From Priestia megaterium NBRC 15308 = ATCC 14581 (lineage in GTDB: Bacteria > Bacillota > Bacilli > Bacillales > Bacillaceae_H), in assembly GCF_000832985.1 (NCBI RefSeq), contig NZ_CP009920.1, positions 1,612,001 to 1,676,000 of the forward strand: a stretch of DNA of 64,000 bases, in the 5' to 3' direction. Shown here piece after piece: positions 12,475 to 20,158 of this stretch. The position numbers were made by a program, and so were the translations under genes. The stretch's first letter is position 1, and every line of letters starts with the position of its first letter. The notes beneath the pieces were generated by a model. The model was not told the origin of the DNA and searched no databases. It saw nothing but the letters and a program-made list of their open reading frames with translations.

Positions 12475-13452
12475 TTATTTTATAGTAATGGCATCGTTTT
12501 CAGCTACAAATTGTCCGATTTTTTTGTATTTTAAATAACGCTCTTCCACTAGCTCTTCTTTTGATAAATTCATCAGCTCTTTTAATGATTTCTTGATAAT
12601 GCCCTCCATGTATCCAGCTTGCGCATCGATATCTCGGTGAGCTCCGCCTTTTACCTCTGAAACCATTTCATCTACAATACCCAGTTCTTTCAAATCTGGT
12701 GCTGTAATCTTCATCGTTTCAGCAGCTTTTTTCGCAAGAGAAGAATCTTTCCAAAGAATGGCTGCCGCTCCTTCTGGAGAAATAACTGAATACGTCGAGT
12801 TCTCAAGCATATGAAGGTGATTTCCTAAACCTAATGCCAAGGCTCCCCCGCTTCCTCCTTCTCCAATTACAATGCAAATAACAGGTACAGTTAAGCCAGC
12901 CATTTCGAAAAGGTTTTTCGCAATAGCTTCGCTTTGTCCGCGCTCTTCTGCCGCTTTCCCTGGATAAGCTCCTTTTGTATCAATAAAGCAAATAATTGGG
13001 CGGTTAAATTTCTCCGCTTGCTTCATTAGACGCAGTGCTTTACGGTAGCCTTCAGGATGAGGCATACCAAAATTACGGCGAATATTTTCTTTCGTATCTT
13101 TACCTCTCTGATGTCCAATCACGGTAACAGGCACGCCATTAAACTTAGCAATTCCTCCTACGATTGCTTCATCATCTCCATAAAAGCGATCTCCATGACA
13201 CTCTAAAAAGTTTGTAAACAAGCGAGAAATATAATCGAGTGTTGTAGGACGCTCAGGATGACGAGCAATTTGAACACGGTTCCATGGGCTTAGATGATTG
13301 TAAATATCGTTTTCTACTTTTTCTAAGCGATTTTCTAACTTATCAATTTCGCTAGATAAATCCACTTCTGTATTTTTAGCAAACTCTTTAAGCTCTGCAA
13401 TCTTGTTTCGCAACTCAACAATTGGACGTTCAAATTCTAATTCGCTTACCAC
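12475..13452 (-). CDS. accA: Acetyl-CoA carboxylase carboxyltransferase, alpha subunit
   Basis: AccA forms the carboxyltransferase with AccD, moving the carboxyl group from biotin to acetyl-CoA to make malonyl-CoA for fatty acid synthesis. The 325-residue protein has a helical N-terminus (about 1-60) and a crotonase-fold core with GHQRGRDTKENI-like [30 protein letters not shown] and [12 protein letters not shown]. It overlaps accD by 7 bases, ensuring coupled synthesis of a 1:1 complex. Ribosome-site GGAGGTGACAT lies inside the accD end. Length and motifs are normal. Confidence 0.97.
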
Positions 13453-14327
13453 TCGATGTCACCTCCTGCTACGTGTATATCTAAAATAGTTGTTAACGTT
13501 TCTTTTAAATCATGACGGTCAATAACTCCGTCTAGCTGACCATGCTTCAACAGAAATTCCGACGTCTGAAAATCTTCTGGAAGCTCTTCTCTAATTGTTT
13601 GTTCAATAATACGTCTTCCAGCAAAGCCAATTAACGCGCCCGGCTCGGCTAAATTATAATCACCTAACGAAGCAAAGCTTGCTGACACGCCTCCTGTAGT
13701 AGGATGTGTCATAATCGAAATGATTAAGCCGCCTTCATCACTGAACATTTTAAGAGCTGCGCTAGTTTTAGCCATTTGCATCAAGCTCAGAACACCTTCT
13801 TGCATACGTGCACCGCCTGAAGCTGTGAAAATAAGGAATGGAACATGCATTTCCTTCGCTTTTTCAATGGCGCGAGTAATTTTCTCGCCGACTACAGAAC
13901 CCATGCTTCCCATACGGAAGTGTGAATCCATAACAGCAACTACTACTTTAATGCCTTCAATATCTCCTTCACCCGTAACAATCGCTTCACTTAAATTAGT
14001 TTTCTCACGATCTTTTTCGAGCTTTTCAAGATAATCAGGGAACCCAAGAGGATTTTCTGACGTCATATCTTTGTCGTATTCAACAAACGTTCCGCTGTCG
14101 ATTAAGCTTTCGATACGCTCTGGTGCTGTCATTTGGTGATGATATCCACAGTTTAAGCATACTTTTAAGTTTTTATTTAACTCTTTCGTATACATTATTT
14201 TTTTACACTTTTTACACTTGGTCATAATTCCTTCAGGTACATCTTGTCTCATATGCTCAGAAGGAATCGTAGCATATTTTCGTTTTTTTGGAGTTTTTGT
14301 GTTTTTTGTAAATAAATCTCGTAACAA
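13446..14327 (-). CDS. accD: Acetyl-CoA carboxylase carboxyltransferase, beta subunit
   Basis: This 293-residue subunit pairs with AccA in acetyl-CoA carboxylase. The N-terminal zinc ribbon is visible as CKKCKKIMY followed 15 residues later by CLNCGYH; the crotonase-like core contains [22 protein letters not shown] and [15 protein letters not shown]. The start codon is TTG at 14327, seven bases after AAAGGAGG, giving MLRDLFTK; there is no better ATG. It is first in accDA, 227 bases downstream of a FadR-type GntR gene. No obvious FapR-like operator was noticed upstream. Confidence 0.96.
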
Positions 14328-14554: not shown

Positions 14555-15169
14555 TCACACTTGTTTGTAGCACTGATGGTGAAGATTTAATACAGCTGCT
14601 TCATCTTTTTTAGCTAACGCCTCTACTAATTCACTTATCAGAATGTCGCTTGGCGCTGAGTTTTGTTGAAAAGTTTGAGAAAAACGGCAAATAATCAGCC
14701 AGATTCGGTGTAATAGCCGATTAGGCTGCAAAGAAAACAAATAGTCAAACAAGTTCTTCAAACAATCGTCATTCTGCTTTTGAATTGCTTTCGAAACATT
14801 GATTTCGTCCTGTTCCGCTAAAACAAAATACAAACAGCTCTTTTCAAGAATATATCTAGTCTGAATTAAATCTGATTTTGTTTTACCGTCTTGTACTAAA
14901 AAAGTAGCTAATAAATCAATAAATTGATGATCCCCTACTTCTTTAATAAACGTACCTTCACCTCTTCTAGTTTCAATCAACCCAATTAGCTCTAACGCTC
15001 TGAGCGCTTCTCGAACGGAAGAACGTCCTGCGCCTAACCGTTCAGAAAGCTCTCGTTCTGACGGGATTTTATCCCCCGTAGTTAAACGATCGTCTTCCAT
15101 TAGCTGGCGAATTTGTTTTAGAATTTCTACATATACTTTTGAACGTTCATTCTTCAAGTTTACTACCAC
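14555..15169 (-). CDS. FadR-subfamily GntR transcription regulator
   Basis: The 204-residue protein has an N-terminal GntR winged helix (about 8-75: KIPSERELSERLGAGRSSVREALRALELIGLIETRRGEGTFI, read in pieces) and a short helical FCD-type ligand domain (about 85-204) ending in ALAKKDEAAVLNLHHQCYK, the usual last helix of that domain. FCD regulators respond to small organic acids or acyl-CoA. It sits between malic enzyme and accDA, on their strand, which suggests control of pyruvate/malate or fatty acid supply. A FadR-like palindrome TGGTCAGACCA lies upstream of the malic enzyme gene. The start is uncertain: GTG at 15169, or TTG 12 bases later. Confidence 0.82.
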   Translation of the reverse strand: MVVNLKNERSKVYVEILKQIRQLMEDDRLTTGDKIPSERELSERLGAGRSSVREALRALELIGLIETRRGEGTFIKEVGDHQFIDLLATFLVQDGKTKSDLIQTRYILEKSCLYFVLAEQDEINVSKAIQKQNDDCLKNLFDYLFSLQPNRLLHRIWLIICRFSQTFQQNSAPSDILISELVEALAKKDEAAVLNLHHQCYKQV

Positions 15170-15187
15170 TCACTTTACATTACTTTA

Positions 15188-15215
15188 ACAGGCATGCTTG
15201 AAGCATCATGCCTGT
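15188..15215 (-). terminator. Hairpin between malic enzyme and GntR gene
   Basis: ACAGGCATG pairs perfectly with CATGCCTGT around a 10-base segment that can itself pair (ATGCTT/GAAGCAT). There is no U-tract, so it may be an RNA-stability element or weak terminator. Confidence 0.45.
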
Positions 15216-15236: not shown

Positions 15237-16466
15237 TTATTCAATAATCGCTAAGCGACGTGTGTTTTCAGCTACGGCTTCTGGCTTTACCTTTATCCGG
15301 GCAACGCCTGTTTCCATAGCTGCTTTTGCAACAGCGGCGGCTACTGCCGGAGCCACTCGTGCATCAAATGGACCTGGAATCACATAGTCTGTATTCAAGT
15401 CCTCTTCCGTAATTAAATTAGCAATGGCCTCAACTGCAGCCATTTTCATTTTTTCATTAATATGAGTAGCACGTACATCTAGTGCACCTCGGAATATCCC
15501 CGGAAACGCTAAGACATTGTTCACTTGATTAGGAAAATCAGAACGTCCGGTGCCGATTACTTTCGCGCCAGCTTTTTTAGCTTCTTCTGGCATAATTTCA
15601 GGCACCGGATTTGCCATTGCAAAAATGATTGGGTCTGGATTCATCTTTCCAATCATCTCCGGTGTGAGTGCTCCTTCAACCGAAACTCCAATAAATACGT
15701 CAGCTTCTTCTAAGGCATCAGCTAACGTACCTTCTACTTTGCTTCGATTTGTATAGGCTGCAACTTCATCTTTTATACGGTTCATGCCGTGAGGACGCTT
15801 GTCATAAATCGTTCCTTTGGAATCACACATAATGATATCGCGCACTCCATAGCTGTATAATAATTTAATAATAGCAATGCCAGCAGCTCCTGCTCCATTC
15901 GCTACCACTTTGATTTGTGACATTTTTCTTCCTGTCAGCTTCAGGGCATTAAGAAGGCCCGCTACCGTAACAATAGCCGTCCCATGCTGATCATCATGAA
16001 AAACCGGGATATTTGTTTCCTTTTTCAACCGCTCTTCAATTTCAAAACAGTTAGGAGCCGCAATATCTTCTAAATTAACGCCTCCAAAAGTAGGTTCTAG
16101 CAATTTAACAGTTTCTATAATTTTGTCCACATCTGTCGTGTTTAAACAAATTGGGAATGCATCTACGCCGGCAAAACTTTTAAAAAGGACAGCTTTCCCT
16201 TCCATTACTGGCAGAGCAGCTTCAGGACCTATATTGCCCAAGCCCAATACGGCAGTGCCATCAGATACAACAGCTACCATATTTCCTTTCATCGTATATT
16301 CATATACATTGTTTACATCATCATATATTTCTTTGCAAGGTTCTGCTACACCAGGGGAATAAGCAAGGCTTAAATCCTCTGCGTTTCGAACAGGAATTTT
16401 GGACTTTGATTCTAGTTTACCTTTGTTAATGCGGTGCATATGCAATGCTTCTTCACGTAAAGACAA
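15237..16466 (-). CDS. ytsJ: NADP-dependent malic enzyme (YtsJ type)
   Basis: This enzyme decarboxylates malate to pyruvate and reduces NADP. The 409-residue single-domain form opens with SLREEALHMHRINKGK and shows SLAYSPGVAEPCKEI, LGLGNIGPEAALPVMEGKA, HDDQHGTAIV and the dinucleotide site VANGAGAAGIAI. It lacks a phosphotransacetylase-like C-domain, matching B. subtilis YtsJ, the main NADPH-producing malic enzyme there. The start is TTG at 16466, about 9 bases after GGGAG. Order dnaE-ytsJ-accDA is as in B. subtilis, except for the GntR gene placed next to it. Confidence 0.93.
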   Translation of the reverse strand: MSLREEALHMHRINKGKLESKSKIPVRNAEDLSLAYSPGVAEPCKEIYDDVNNVYEYTMKGNMVAVVSDGTAVLGLGNIGPEAALPVMEGKAVLFKSFAGVDAFPICLNTTDVDKIIETVKLLEPTFGGVNLEDIAAPNCFEIEERLKKETNIPVFHDDQHGTAIVTVAGLLNALKLTGRKMSQIKVVANGAGAAGIAIIKLLYSYGVRDIIMCDSKGTIYDKRPHGMNRIKDEVAAYTNRSKVEGTLADALEEADVFIGVSVEGALTPEMIGKMNPDPIIFAMANPVPEIMPEEAKKAGAKVIGTGRSDFPNQVNNVLAFPGIFRGALDVRATHINEKMKMAAVEAIANLITEEDLNTDYVIPGPFDARVAPAVAAAVAKAAMETGVARIKVKPEAVAENTRRLAIIE

Positions 16467-16599: not shown

Positions 16600-16626
16600 A
16601 AAAAACGGTGGTCAGACCACTTTTTT
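16600..16626 (-). promoter_or_regulatory. FadR-like palindrome or dnaE terminator upstream of malic enzyme
   Basis: GTGGTCAGACCAC (16608-16620) is a perfect odd palindrome containing TGGTCNGACCA, which resembles the FadR-subfamily operator core TNGTNNNACNA. It is flanked by A and T runs, so the minus-strand RNA could also form a 5-bp GTGGT-CTG-ACCAC stem plus A/U pairs ending the dnaE transcript. Either or both roles are possible. Confidence 0.5.
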
Positions 16627-16666
16627 AACTATTTTACCATATAACATCACATGAAATCTGTAAAGA

Positions 16667-19600
16667 CTATATCTTCTTGAACACAACGTGCTTCTCTCCT
16701 AGCATTGCTTTTAAAGTTTTTATTAACTCGTCGCTTCGTTCAATAGAATAGTGAACGGGAAGCTTGACCAATTGACTTTCTGCCTCATAATAAATTTTCA
16801 CGGGAATTTTCCCTCTATGAGACTGAAAGTGCTGGTAAATAGTATGAAGCAGCTTTTCTGTACCTTGCTTTGTTTCTATACGTAAGTATAATTCTTCTGA
16901 CGGTAGTTTTTGAACCGCCTCGCTAGCAGCTTCAGCACGTTGACAAACAATTTGCTGCTGCCCATTTCTTTCATCTATCTTTCCCTGTATCAGTAAAACC
17001 GTACCTTGTTCAAACAGCAGACGATTCTGCTCAAATACGCGGGGAAACGCAACAACTTCTCCTTCTCCACTTTCATCCGTGATGCGTAAAAAGGCCATTT
17101 GCTCTCCTTTTTTCGTTCGAATGACGCGAATTTCCAACACAAATGCTAAAAGAGAGACCGCTTTTCCTGAAGCGTATTCTTTCATATCGTGAAGAGAAAC
17201 AACAGAATAAAAGGAATTCAGTGCTTCATACTGAGAAGCAGGGTGGCTTGATAAATAAAAACCTAGCATATCTTTTTCATACTGAAGCCGATCTTCTATT
17301 TTCAGTTCCTCTTTTTCCATATATTTAGGTTTTAACGAAAATTCATCTCCAAATCCAAAGTCATCATCTGGGAGTACCAAGCTTGCATGTTCAAACGCTA
17401 CATCAATCGTTGCTAATAAAGTAGCTCGATTTTCTCCGAACTCATCAAAGCCTCCAGATAGAATCAAAGCTTCAAGCCCCTTTTTATTCACGGCTTTTTG
17501 TGAAACACGGGCACAAAAATCAAATAAGTCTTCAAATCTTTTTTTCTTTCGCTCTTCTGTTATTTCCTGCATAGCTGCTGCACCAATATGTTTAATCGCT
17601 GCAAGGCTATACCTTATACTTTCACCTTCTACGTTAAACGAATACATGCTCTTGTTAATAGAAGGTGGGAGAACTTGTATTTTTTTTCTTTTTAGTTCAT
17701 TAATATATTGAGCAATTTTCCCTTCATTTCCAATAACGCTCGTTAGTAAAGCTGAAAAGAACTGCAGCGGGTAATGTGCTTTCAAATAAGCTAACTGATA
17801 GGCTACCATACTGTAAGCAACAGCATGACTTCGGTTGAAGCCATAATCAGCAAAACGCACAATAAGGTCATACACTCGATTAGCAACGGATAGGTCATAC
17901 CCTTTCTTCTTGCTTCCTTGGATAAAATGAGCTCGTTCACGATCCAGCACTGCCCGTTCTTTTTTACTAACTGCTCTTCTCAACAAATCTGCTTCTCCAA
18001 GAGAAAAACCGGCCATTTTTGAAGCAATCTGCATAATTTGCTCTTGGTACACGATAACGCCGTGCGTGGATTGTAAAATGTCTTTGAGCGTAGGATGATC
18101 ATATATTACCTTCTCCACTCCATGCTTGCGCTTAATATAGGTTGGAATATTTTCCATCGGACCAGGTCTATACAGCGCGTTAACTGCTACAATATCTTCT
18201 AGCTCTGTAGGTTTTAATTGCTGAAGCACTCTTCTCATTCCATCTGACTCTAGCTGAAAAATACCGGTCGTATCCCCTTTGCTCAGCAGTTCAAAAGTTT
18301 TCTGATCGTTAAATGGTATATGAGACAGTGACAGCTTTCGATTCATATCCCGCTCAATTTTCTTTAAAATATGATCTAAAATGGTTAAGTTGCGCAAACC
18401 TAAAAAGTCCATTTTCAAAAGCCCAACGTCTTGCAGAGCTTCCATTGGATATTGAGTCAGATATACATCGTCATGTCCTTCCTGTACAGCTACAGATTGC
18501 GTCAGCGGCTTCTCACTAATCACAACGCCTGCTGCATGCGTAGAAGTATGCCTTGGCAGTCCTTCTATCTTCATGGCAATGTTGTACCATTGTTTTCTGG
18601 CTTCATTTTCAGATAAATAGTCTTGAAGAACTCTTGAATCACGAAGAGCGCTTTTCAACGTTGTACCTGGTTTAGTTGGAATGGCTTTGGACATTTTGTT
18701 TAGCGCTTCTTGATCAAATCCCATCACTCTCCCTACATCACGTACGGCTGCTTTAGCTGCTAGTGTTCCAAATGTAATGATTTGAGCTACATGCAGCCCT
18801 CCATATTTTTGCGCCACATACTGAATGACTTGATCTCGTTTGTTATCAGGAAAATCAATATCAATATCAGGCATCGAAATACGTTCAGGATTTAAAAAGC
18901 GCTCAAATAAAAGCTGATGCTGAATTGGATCAACATTTGTAATTCGCAAGGCGTATGAGACCAGTGAGCCTGCCGCTGAACCTCGGCCTGGACCCGTTAA
19001 AATACCGTGTTCATGAGCATAATTCATAAAATCCCATACGATAAGAAAGTAATCACTAAAGCGCATATTTTCAATAATGTTTAGCTCATAATCCAAGCGT
19101 TCCTCATATTGTTCCGTGATCACTTGAACTCTTTCTTGCAATCCTTTTTCGCAGAGAGTGCGCAAGTAGGTTGATGATGTAACAGACGGGGGAACAGGAT
19201 ATTTTGGAATGGACATTACGCCTAGAGAAATTTCGAGCTCGCATCGTCTTGCGATTTTTATACTTTCTTCTATTAAAAAATGCTGGTCATGAAAGAGATC
19301 TTCCATTTCATCAGGTGATTTGAAATAGTACTCGCTGCTCTTACTTTTTACCTCTTCATCGCTATGTAATTTCTCTCCGTCTCGAATAGCTGCTAAACAC
19401 TCATACGCATCCCGATCTTCTTTTTTTAAATATTTCACTTGATTCGTCGCAACAAGCGGAATATTTTCTTCAGCGGCAAGTTCCGTTAACTGCTGATTTA
19501 TAAAAGCTTCATCCTGTCCGTGGCGCTGTATAGATATATACAAAGACTGCGAATATACTTTTTTAAAGAATTGAAGCACTCGCTTAGCATCTTGAAGTTT

Positions 19601-20017
19601 GTTTTCTGCTAGCAGGGTTTCAACTTCTCCAGTTACACCGGGTGTAATAGCAATCACCCCTCCGCTGTAATGATGGAGCCATTTTTTATTTACACCGTGT
19701 TTTTCCTTGGTTTGAACTAAACTGCTTAGTTTTAATAGATTTTCATATCCCTTATCATTTTCCGCTAACAAAACTAAAGGGTACGCTCGCTCGCTTTCTT
19801 CATGTTCTAGGATTGATAATGTGAGCCCAATAATTGGCTTGATCCCCGCTTTCACGCAGGCTTTATAAAAAGGAATGACTCCGTACATCACGTTTTCATC
19901 AGTCAAAGCAATCGCTTCATAGTTCATTTTCTTAGCTGTTTCTACAAGTTCATTAATACGAACGGAACTGCTTAATAAGCTATAAGAACTTTGAAGCTGC
20001 AAGTGAACAAAAGGCAC
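16667..20017 (-). CDS. dnaE: DNA polymerase III alpha subunit DnaE
   Basis: DnaE is the second replicative polymerase of Firmicutes, which extends RNA primers before PolC takes over. The 1116-residue product has the PHP domain (about 1-210, FVHLQLQSSYSLL start), GPGRGSAAGSLVSYAL, the catalytic triad region MPDIDIDFPDNKRDQVI, GTLAAKAAVRDVGR, PGPMENIPTYIKRK and a C-terminal OB domain (about 960-1050, LAFVLEIRVIRTKKGEQMAF in pieces). A GTG 12 bases upstream is possible, but AAAGGTGG spaces best to the GTG at 20017, matching B. subtilis DnaE. It is divergent from ytrHI. There is no sign of truncation. Confidence 0.96.
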   Translation of the reverse strand: MPFVHLQLQSSYSLLSSSVRINELVETAKKMNYEAIALTDENVMYGVIPFYKACVKAGIKPIIGLTLSILEHEESERAYPLVLLAENDKGYENLLKLSSLVQTKEKHGVNKKWLHHYSGGVIAITPGVTGEVETLLAENKLQDAKRVLQFFKKVYSQSLYISIQRHGQDEAFINQQLTELAAEENIPLVATNQVKYLKKEDRDAYECLAAIRDGEKLHSDEEVKSKSSEYYFKSPDEMEDLFHDQHFLIEESIKIARRCELEISLGVMSIPKYPVPPSVTSSTYLRTLCEKGLQERVQVITEQYEERLDYELNIIENMRFSDYFLIVWDFMNYAHEHGILTGPGRGSAAGSLVSYALRITNVDPIQHQLLFERFLNPERISMPDIDIDFPDNKRDQVIQYVAQKYGGLHVAQIITFGTLAAKAAVRDVGRVMGFDQEALNKMSKAIPTKPGTTLKSALRDSRVLQDYLSENEARKQWYNIAMKIEGLPRHTSTHAAGVVISEKPLTQSVAVQEGHDDVYLTQYPMEALQDVGLLKMDFLGLRNLTILDHILKKIERDMNRKLSLSHIPFNDQKTFELLSKGDTTGIFQLESDGMRRVLQQLKPTELEDIVAVNALYRPGPMENIPTYIKRKHGVEKVIYDHPTLKDILQSTHGVIVYQEQIMQIASKMAGFSLGEADLLRRAVSKKERAVLDRERAHFIQGSKKKGYDLSVANRVYDLIVRFADYGFNRSHAVAYSMVAYQLAYLKAHYPLQFFSALLTSVIGNEGKIAQYINELKRKKIQVLPPSINKSMYSFNVEGESIRYSLAAIKHIGAAAMQEITEERKKKRFEDLFDFCARVSQKAVNKKGLEALILSGGFDEFGENRATLLATIDVAFEHASLVLPDDDFGFGDEFSLKPKYMEKEELKIEDRLQYEKDMLGFYLSSHPASQYEALNSFYSVVSLHDMKEYASGKAVSLLAFVLEIRVIRTKKGEQMAFLRITDESGEGEVVAFPRVFEQNRLLFEQGTVLLIQGKIDERNGQQQIVCQRAEAASEAVQKLPSEELYLRIETKQGTEKLLHTIYQHFQSHRGKIPVKIYYEAESQLVKLPVHYSIERSDELIKTLKAMLGEKHVVFKKI

Positions 20018-20158
20018 AGGACTTCCCACCTTTCTTTAATTCTTTATTCTTATTATAAATTTTGTTGCCGGCGTAGACAAATTACATAACTCTGAGCGTT
20101 TGTCCATATATATGTAGGAAGCGTGATTCATTGATAAAATAGTAAAGGAGGACACGTC

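Follow-up and report, generated by a model that had tools for sequence, protein, structure and literature searches.

The 13-bp perfect palindrome GTGGTCAGACCAC at positions 16608-16620 of the window (the whole 64-kb stretch of DNA analysed here) is very probably the operator for a GntR/FadR-subfamily regulator whose gene is the second one downstream; this protein would act as a local repressor of the malic enzyme gene ytsJ and, by autoregulation, of itself. The assignment is drawn from sequence comparison: it builds on the core TGGTC-N-GACCA of the site, to which no strand is assigned, and on its co-occurrence with the regulator gene in relatives. On the minus strand, dnaE (16667-20029) ends with its stop codon 46 nt upstream of the palindrome, and 141 nt further down begins the first gene behind the operator, a malic enzyme gene of the ytsJ type (15237-16466, minus strand). 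As stated in the preliminary description, the regulator is encoded right after malic enzyme: the presumed cognate repressor (14555-15169, minus strand; 204 aa, GTG start) follows co-directionally after a spacer of 67 nt. Next on the same strand come accD (13446-14327) and accA (12475-13452), for the beta and alpha carboxyltransferase subunits of acetyl-CoA carboxylase. The three flanking genes were named from sequence knowledge, and we take them to be dnaE, accD and accA. A predicted sigma-A-type promoter (16636-16664, minus strand) consists of TTTACA at 16664-16659 and a -10 region, TATATG or TATGGT, within 16643-16636; the operator lies just downstream of this promoter-like pair.

Taken alone, the palindrome could be a product of chance. 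The perfect palindrome with its TGGTC-N-GACCA core was indeed present as first described, and it occurs once in the window. By dinucleotide shuffles, a mean of 0.50 matches with up to two mismatches is expected in 64 kb, and among the odd-centred perfect palindromes of the window, 23 have arms of 6 or more, of which four contain at least 6 G/C. In the 5.75 Mb genome, the full 13-bp form has a single copy and its reversed control none, while TGGTCNGACCA is found at two places, the second of which is within an ORF, and the reversed control pattern also at two. When up to one mismatch to GTGGTCNGACCAC was allowed, two further places were obtained, with two matches in all for the reversed control. 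Both places, situated inside ORFs (429 aa and at least 554 aa), were rejected as extra targets. It is the conservation across relatives that places the site far beyond chance.

To follow the site across the order, 299 genomes were sampled, of which 289 gave a malic enzyme match at 1e-120 and 240 a regulator match at 1e-25. We examined 107 loci, namely the 30 best malic enzyme hits, 29 from genomes with no regulator match, and 48 for family spread, which were picked before their upstream DNA was inspected. The 77 regulator loci are hence a non-random choice, by score or family spread, from the 240 genomes with a match, and 30 of the 59 genomes with no match were examined. The core TGGTCNGACCA was present with at most one mismatch within 400 bp upstream of ytsJ in 77/77 loci with the regulator (74 exact; L102, L123 and L130 one mismatch off) and in 0/29 loci lacking it. 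The best matches in these 29 loci had 2-4 mismatches, as in most shuffles, and shuffled upstream DNA reached one mismatch in 2 of 535 cases. One locus, L084, was set aside, as it has an exact site and no visible regulator on a contig that ends 7 bp after ytsJ; with it counted, the site occurs in 1/30 regulator-less loci. The association of site and regulator gave a Fisher p of about 1e-26, a value that ignores relatedness. A search of the 29 regulator-less loci for remnants of the regulator found none that was convincing (two hits, E 0.007 and 0.010). Six families (f1, f3, f23, f32, f42 and f44) each hold both states, with the pair present or absent; thus site and regulator have probably been gained or lost jointly several times. 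It should be pointed out that the letter table was built from sites fitting the pattern TGGTC.[GT]ACCA, so that conservation of the core cannot be read from it; scoring at every position was used instead.

In L047 (genome G005), which belongs to the window's own family, the boxes TTTACA-16-TGGTATATT are kept, and operator and regulator are both absent. No regulator remnant was detected by tblastn in the 606-bp ytsJ-accD spacer of this locus. A promoter-like pair scoring at least 11 was found in the dnaE-ytsJ spacer of 10/29 regulator-less loci, L047 among them, and of 44/77 loci with the regulator, compared with 0/106 shuffles.

The exact form GTGGTCWGACCAC was then sought in 65 whole genomes, 64 of them with the regulator. 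As a result, 55 sites were found in 49 genomes, one or two in each, with 49 of the sites before ytsJ and 6 between the regulator and accD. In each of the 65 genomes the locus count equals the genome total; therefore, the exact copies are confined to the locus, and none of these genomes has an exact 13-bp copy elsewhere. The reversed control of GTGGTCWGACCAC matched in 1/65. The 16 genomes without GTGGTCWGACCAC comprise the regulator-less G005 and 15 in which outer or core letters differ, which means that the full 13-bp form is missing in 15/64 regulator-bearing genomes. The co-occurrence search called for at the outset has thus been carried out, and its counts, together with the lack of exact off-locus sites in 65 genomes, argue strongly for the initial proposal of the palindrome as operator of the adjacent FadR-type regulator. 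As the operator is near-unique per genome, the prediction is cheaply testable.

The position of the site relative to the promoter was evaluated in 71 distinct loci, and the arrangement seen in the window recurs in relatives. A promoter-like pair scoring at least 11 is located within 70 nt before the operator in 43/71 distinct upstream regions and in 0/213 shuffles, and from the end of the -10 box to the operator there are 7-21 nt (median 15). The first promoter scan covered the upstream side only, and a second one added the downstream side: no score of at least 11 was found in the 81 nt downstream of the operator in the 71 loci, and the score was higher upstream than downstream in 68 of them, with three ties. 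With a score of 9 and a poor -10 box (TATATG or TATGGT), the promoter of the window ranks towards the weak end of the set. Since the promoter pair is upstream of the operator, the operator falls around or just after the likely transcription start, which is a repressor position. We infer that a dimer of this very protein would bind TGGTC-N-GACCA just past the -10 box, near the transcription start, and block the promoter of a transcript shared by ytsJ and the regulator, so that malic enzyme and the regulator's own gene would both be repressed. In this genome, readthrough would carry transcription on to the accDA genes; where a lineage has a second operator in front of accD, or the gene order dnaE-regulator-accDA, their control would be direct. 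Release of the repressor, that is, induction, would follow from a ligand or a metabolic state.

Three other functions of the palindrome, and another partner for it, have to be weighed against this reading. In view of the A or T runs around the site, a dnaE terminator role had been allowed for it, and a weak hairpin does exist: it is short and, in the window, flanked by A and T runs to either side, it was listed for both strands by the scan, and it folds with -6.7 kcal/mol. Such a fold is, however, ordinary (z -0.59; 44/200 shuffles equally good), and at least 5 T among the 8 nt after the site were seen in just 16/71 distinct relatives in the sense direction and 17/71 on the other strand. In addition, the site is preceded by the likely ytsJ promoter, and the palindrome is missing from 29/29 usable regulator-less loci. 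A pure terminator had been expected to change its letters with pairing kept; instead the letters themselves are kept and not pairing alone, with the core exact in 74/77 loci and one letter off in three, whereas arm lengths range from 5 to 15 among the relatives, two imperfect sites apart. Given a constant core but variable arm lengths and T-runs, we rejected plain termination of dnaE as the principal function of the site, and it is extremely unlikely that the palindrome is solely an intrinsic terminator of dnaE, possibly a bidirectional one. A combined function, in which the operator doubles as a weak terminator of dnaE readthrough in the closest Priestia relatives only, has a small but real chance: the hairpin is there, and T runs on both sides were found in L037, L038 and L039 only out of 71 distinct loci. 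Against it, the hairpin is weak and ordinary, and the ytsJ transcript itself would be attenuated as well. That the regulator activates ytsJ from this site instead of repressing it seems unlikely, and markedly more so than the combined function. The point in favour of activation is a general one, as some GntR proteins are activators; in 68/71 distinct loci, with three ties, the better-scoring promoter-like pair precedes the operator, which speaks against it.

The site might also be bound mainly by another FadR/LldR-type regulator, for example a lactate regulator, rather than by the product of the neighbouring gene. The E. coli LldR box, given as AAnTGGTCnGACCAnTT in the available part of PMC10272880, has the same core, and the genome of the window carries two further matches to the family profile, three in all. 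On the other hand, presence of the site tracks presence of the neighbour gene, and several genomes without that gene (for example G058, G125, G152 and G226) keep a family-profile match, yet their ytsJ loci (L079, L071, L073 and L069) are site-less. A different main binder is therefore very improbable, if slightly less so than a pure terminator, and the regulator encoded at the locus is retained as the probable binding protein.

Comparison with known systems places the operator near the LldR and PdhR boxes. It had been called FadR-like, and TGGTC-A-GACCA does fit the FadR-subfamily consensus NyGTM-N0-1-KACNy as it appears in the available part of PMC4494728; the closest boxes are, however, of the LldR/PdhR type. 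The core TGGTCnGACCA reported for LldR, the FadR-subfamily GntR regulator of E. coli lldPRD, is identical to that of the window operator (PMC10272880, available part), but the AAn/nTT flanks of the LldR box differ from those of the family operator. The window regulator reaches 72 bits against an NCBIfam equivalog cut-off of 311 for LldR, and its neighbours, malic enzyme and accDA, are different. For pyruvate-sensing PdhR of E. coli, the passages available of PMC7660256 give the box AATTGGTnnnACCAATT with the core GGTnnnACC, which is common to the window operator. PdhR resembles the window regulator in its helix-turn-helix (HTH), although the latter scores 65.7 against an equivalog cut-off of 330 bits, and box and neighbour genes differ from the window system. 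The E. coli FadR shares the FadR-subfamily fold class and the general box consensus, but the window regulator scores 31.3 against 189 bits and is linked to malic enzyme and accDA, not to fad genes.

The regulator itself has a clear N-terminal GntR winged helix-turn-helix (PF00392, E 4.4e-18, 65.1 bits against a cut-off of 27), and this domain was found in 49/49 aligned family members. It had been described as the sole GntR/FCD regulator of the window. It is indeed the only ORF matched by the family profile among 195 window frames of at least 60 aa, but Pfam FCD remained unmatched in the protein even at E=10. The same model matches 22/49 family members, and the family profile can be aligned over the greater part of FCD-type structures (6az6 and 2di3, for example). 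LldR and PdhR are the top NCBIfam models, both far under their cut-offs and LldR best by score, and the closest proteins of solved structure, judged by sequence, belong to the GntR family (e.g. 2di3, 8pqm, 6az6). A structure model from a four-row alignment is all-helical past the HTH with a mean pLDDT of only 69, and the structural matches of this modest model are NanR, 2di3, TM0439 and FadR structures at TM of 0.46 or below.

FCD sensors coordinate a metal through the ligands D...H, H and H. This motif, sought as an unaligned pattern by which near-misses such as L204 were scored absent, was not found in the window regulator. It is present in 22/109 distinct regulators, and the window's clade is without it. 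On the regulator tree, three changes are needed to explain its distribution compared with 20.3 for shuffled labels; the midpoint root serves for drawing only, and the tree does not give the direction of change. We infer a loss of the motif by analogy with FCD proteins in general. Ligand control is uncertain, given the strong divergence of the effector domain and the lack of a Pfam FCD match in the window protein. Within the order, the sensor part (14555-14944) diverges strongly, in contrast to the well-kept HTH. Some regulators that are very short with script-chosen start codons (L219, 150 aa; L221, 141 aa; L115, 164 aa) still go with the operator or a variant of it. Among named relatives, the nearest one found was Priestia aryabhattai B8W22 (L144), whose regulator is 95% identical. 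A scan of genome contigs with the single window protein returned five loci: L144, L145 and L146 have the same gene order and the operator, and L147 and L148 were discarded as weak partial matches.

A local circuit linking malate-to-pyruvate flux with acetyl-CoA carboxylase had been proposed as well. In the window itself, the link would be indirect only, as no operator was found before accD there, but such operators do exist in other lineages. A second exact operator 79-130 bp before accD was present in 6/77 loci (L053, L058, L061, L099, L113 and L136), all of them in family f47, which is represented by 10 loci in the sample; the placement suggests direct control of accDA in these six loci. At class level, 161/250 genomes match the family profile, a count that includes paralogues and the window's own order. 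From the listed matches, 32 loci were taken for spread; accD adjoins the regulator in 30 of them, and the remaining two, L220 and L222, were dropped as they have no accD. In each of these 30 orthologous loci, all from other orders, TGGTNNNACCA is found no more than 400 bp ahead of the operon, and in 26 of them it takes the form TGGTCNGACCA. In 10 of the 30 (L206, L207, L216, L217, L218, L219, L223, L224, L229 and L230, of families f49, f56 and f62), the stretch contains no malic enzyme gene between dnaE and the regulator, and the operator (nine exact, one variant) precedes regulator-accDA. So, the constant partners in the 30-locus set are the regulator, the operator and accDA.

It is conceivable, though we would not call it probable, that these loci reflect a multi-order regulator of the step from malate and pyruvate to malonyl-CoA, with ytsJ and accDA under one near-unique operator. 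Its metal-carboxylate type of sensor would be absent in a large clade, leaving perhaps a ligand-switched or a ligand-free autoregulatory set-point, with HTH and operator frozen. If the wider reading is true, bacilli would have here a control of acetyl-CoA carboxylase transcription that has so far been missing, distinct from FapR. The operator assignment in itself joins the enzyme that makes pyruvate and the opening step of fatty-acid synthesis in a single local circuit. It also provides a gene matched in 240/299 sampled genomes of the order with a regulator function, a single exact operator and few targets. A well-kept DNA-binding half joined to a strongly diverging sensor half is an unusual and testable evolutionary pattern.

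To our knowledge, B. subtilis is without this regulator. The same enzyme is encoded downstream of dnaE there, with a promoter immediately upstream, and the available part of PMC10433868 describes promoters P1, P2 and PdnaE and control by the RoxS sRNA, with no mention of a GntR regulator or operator in that part. Similarly, the term 'GntR' does not appear in the text available of a paper on S. aureus fatty acids (PMC7392221). Among the open-access papers searched, by title and abstract opening, no description of the regulator was found; the gene is apparently uncharacterised, and an earlier prediction in RegPrecise or in supplements is possible.

Two minor features deserve mention. The operator variants TGGTATGACCA, TGGTAGGACCA, TGGTCATACCA and TGGTCTGGCCA were observed in L208, L215, L218, L221, L102, L123 and L130, and are possibly co-evolving with the recognition helix. 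The spacer between malic enzyme and the regulator contains at 15188-15215 an inverted repeat, ACAGGCATG...CATGCCTGT, with no T run, which may serve in tuning of regulator expression or in mRNA processing.
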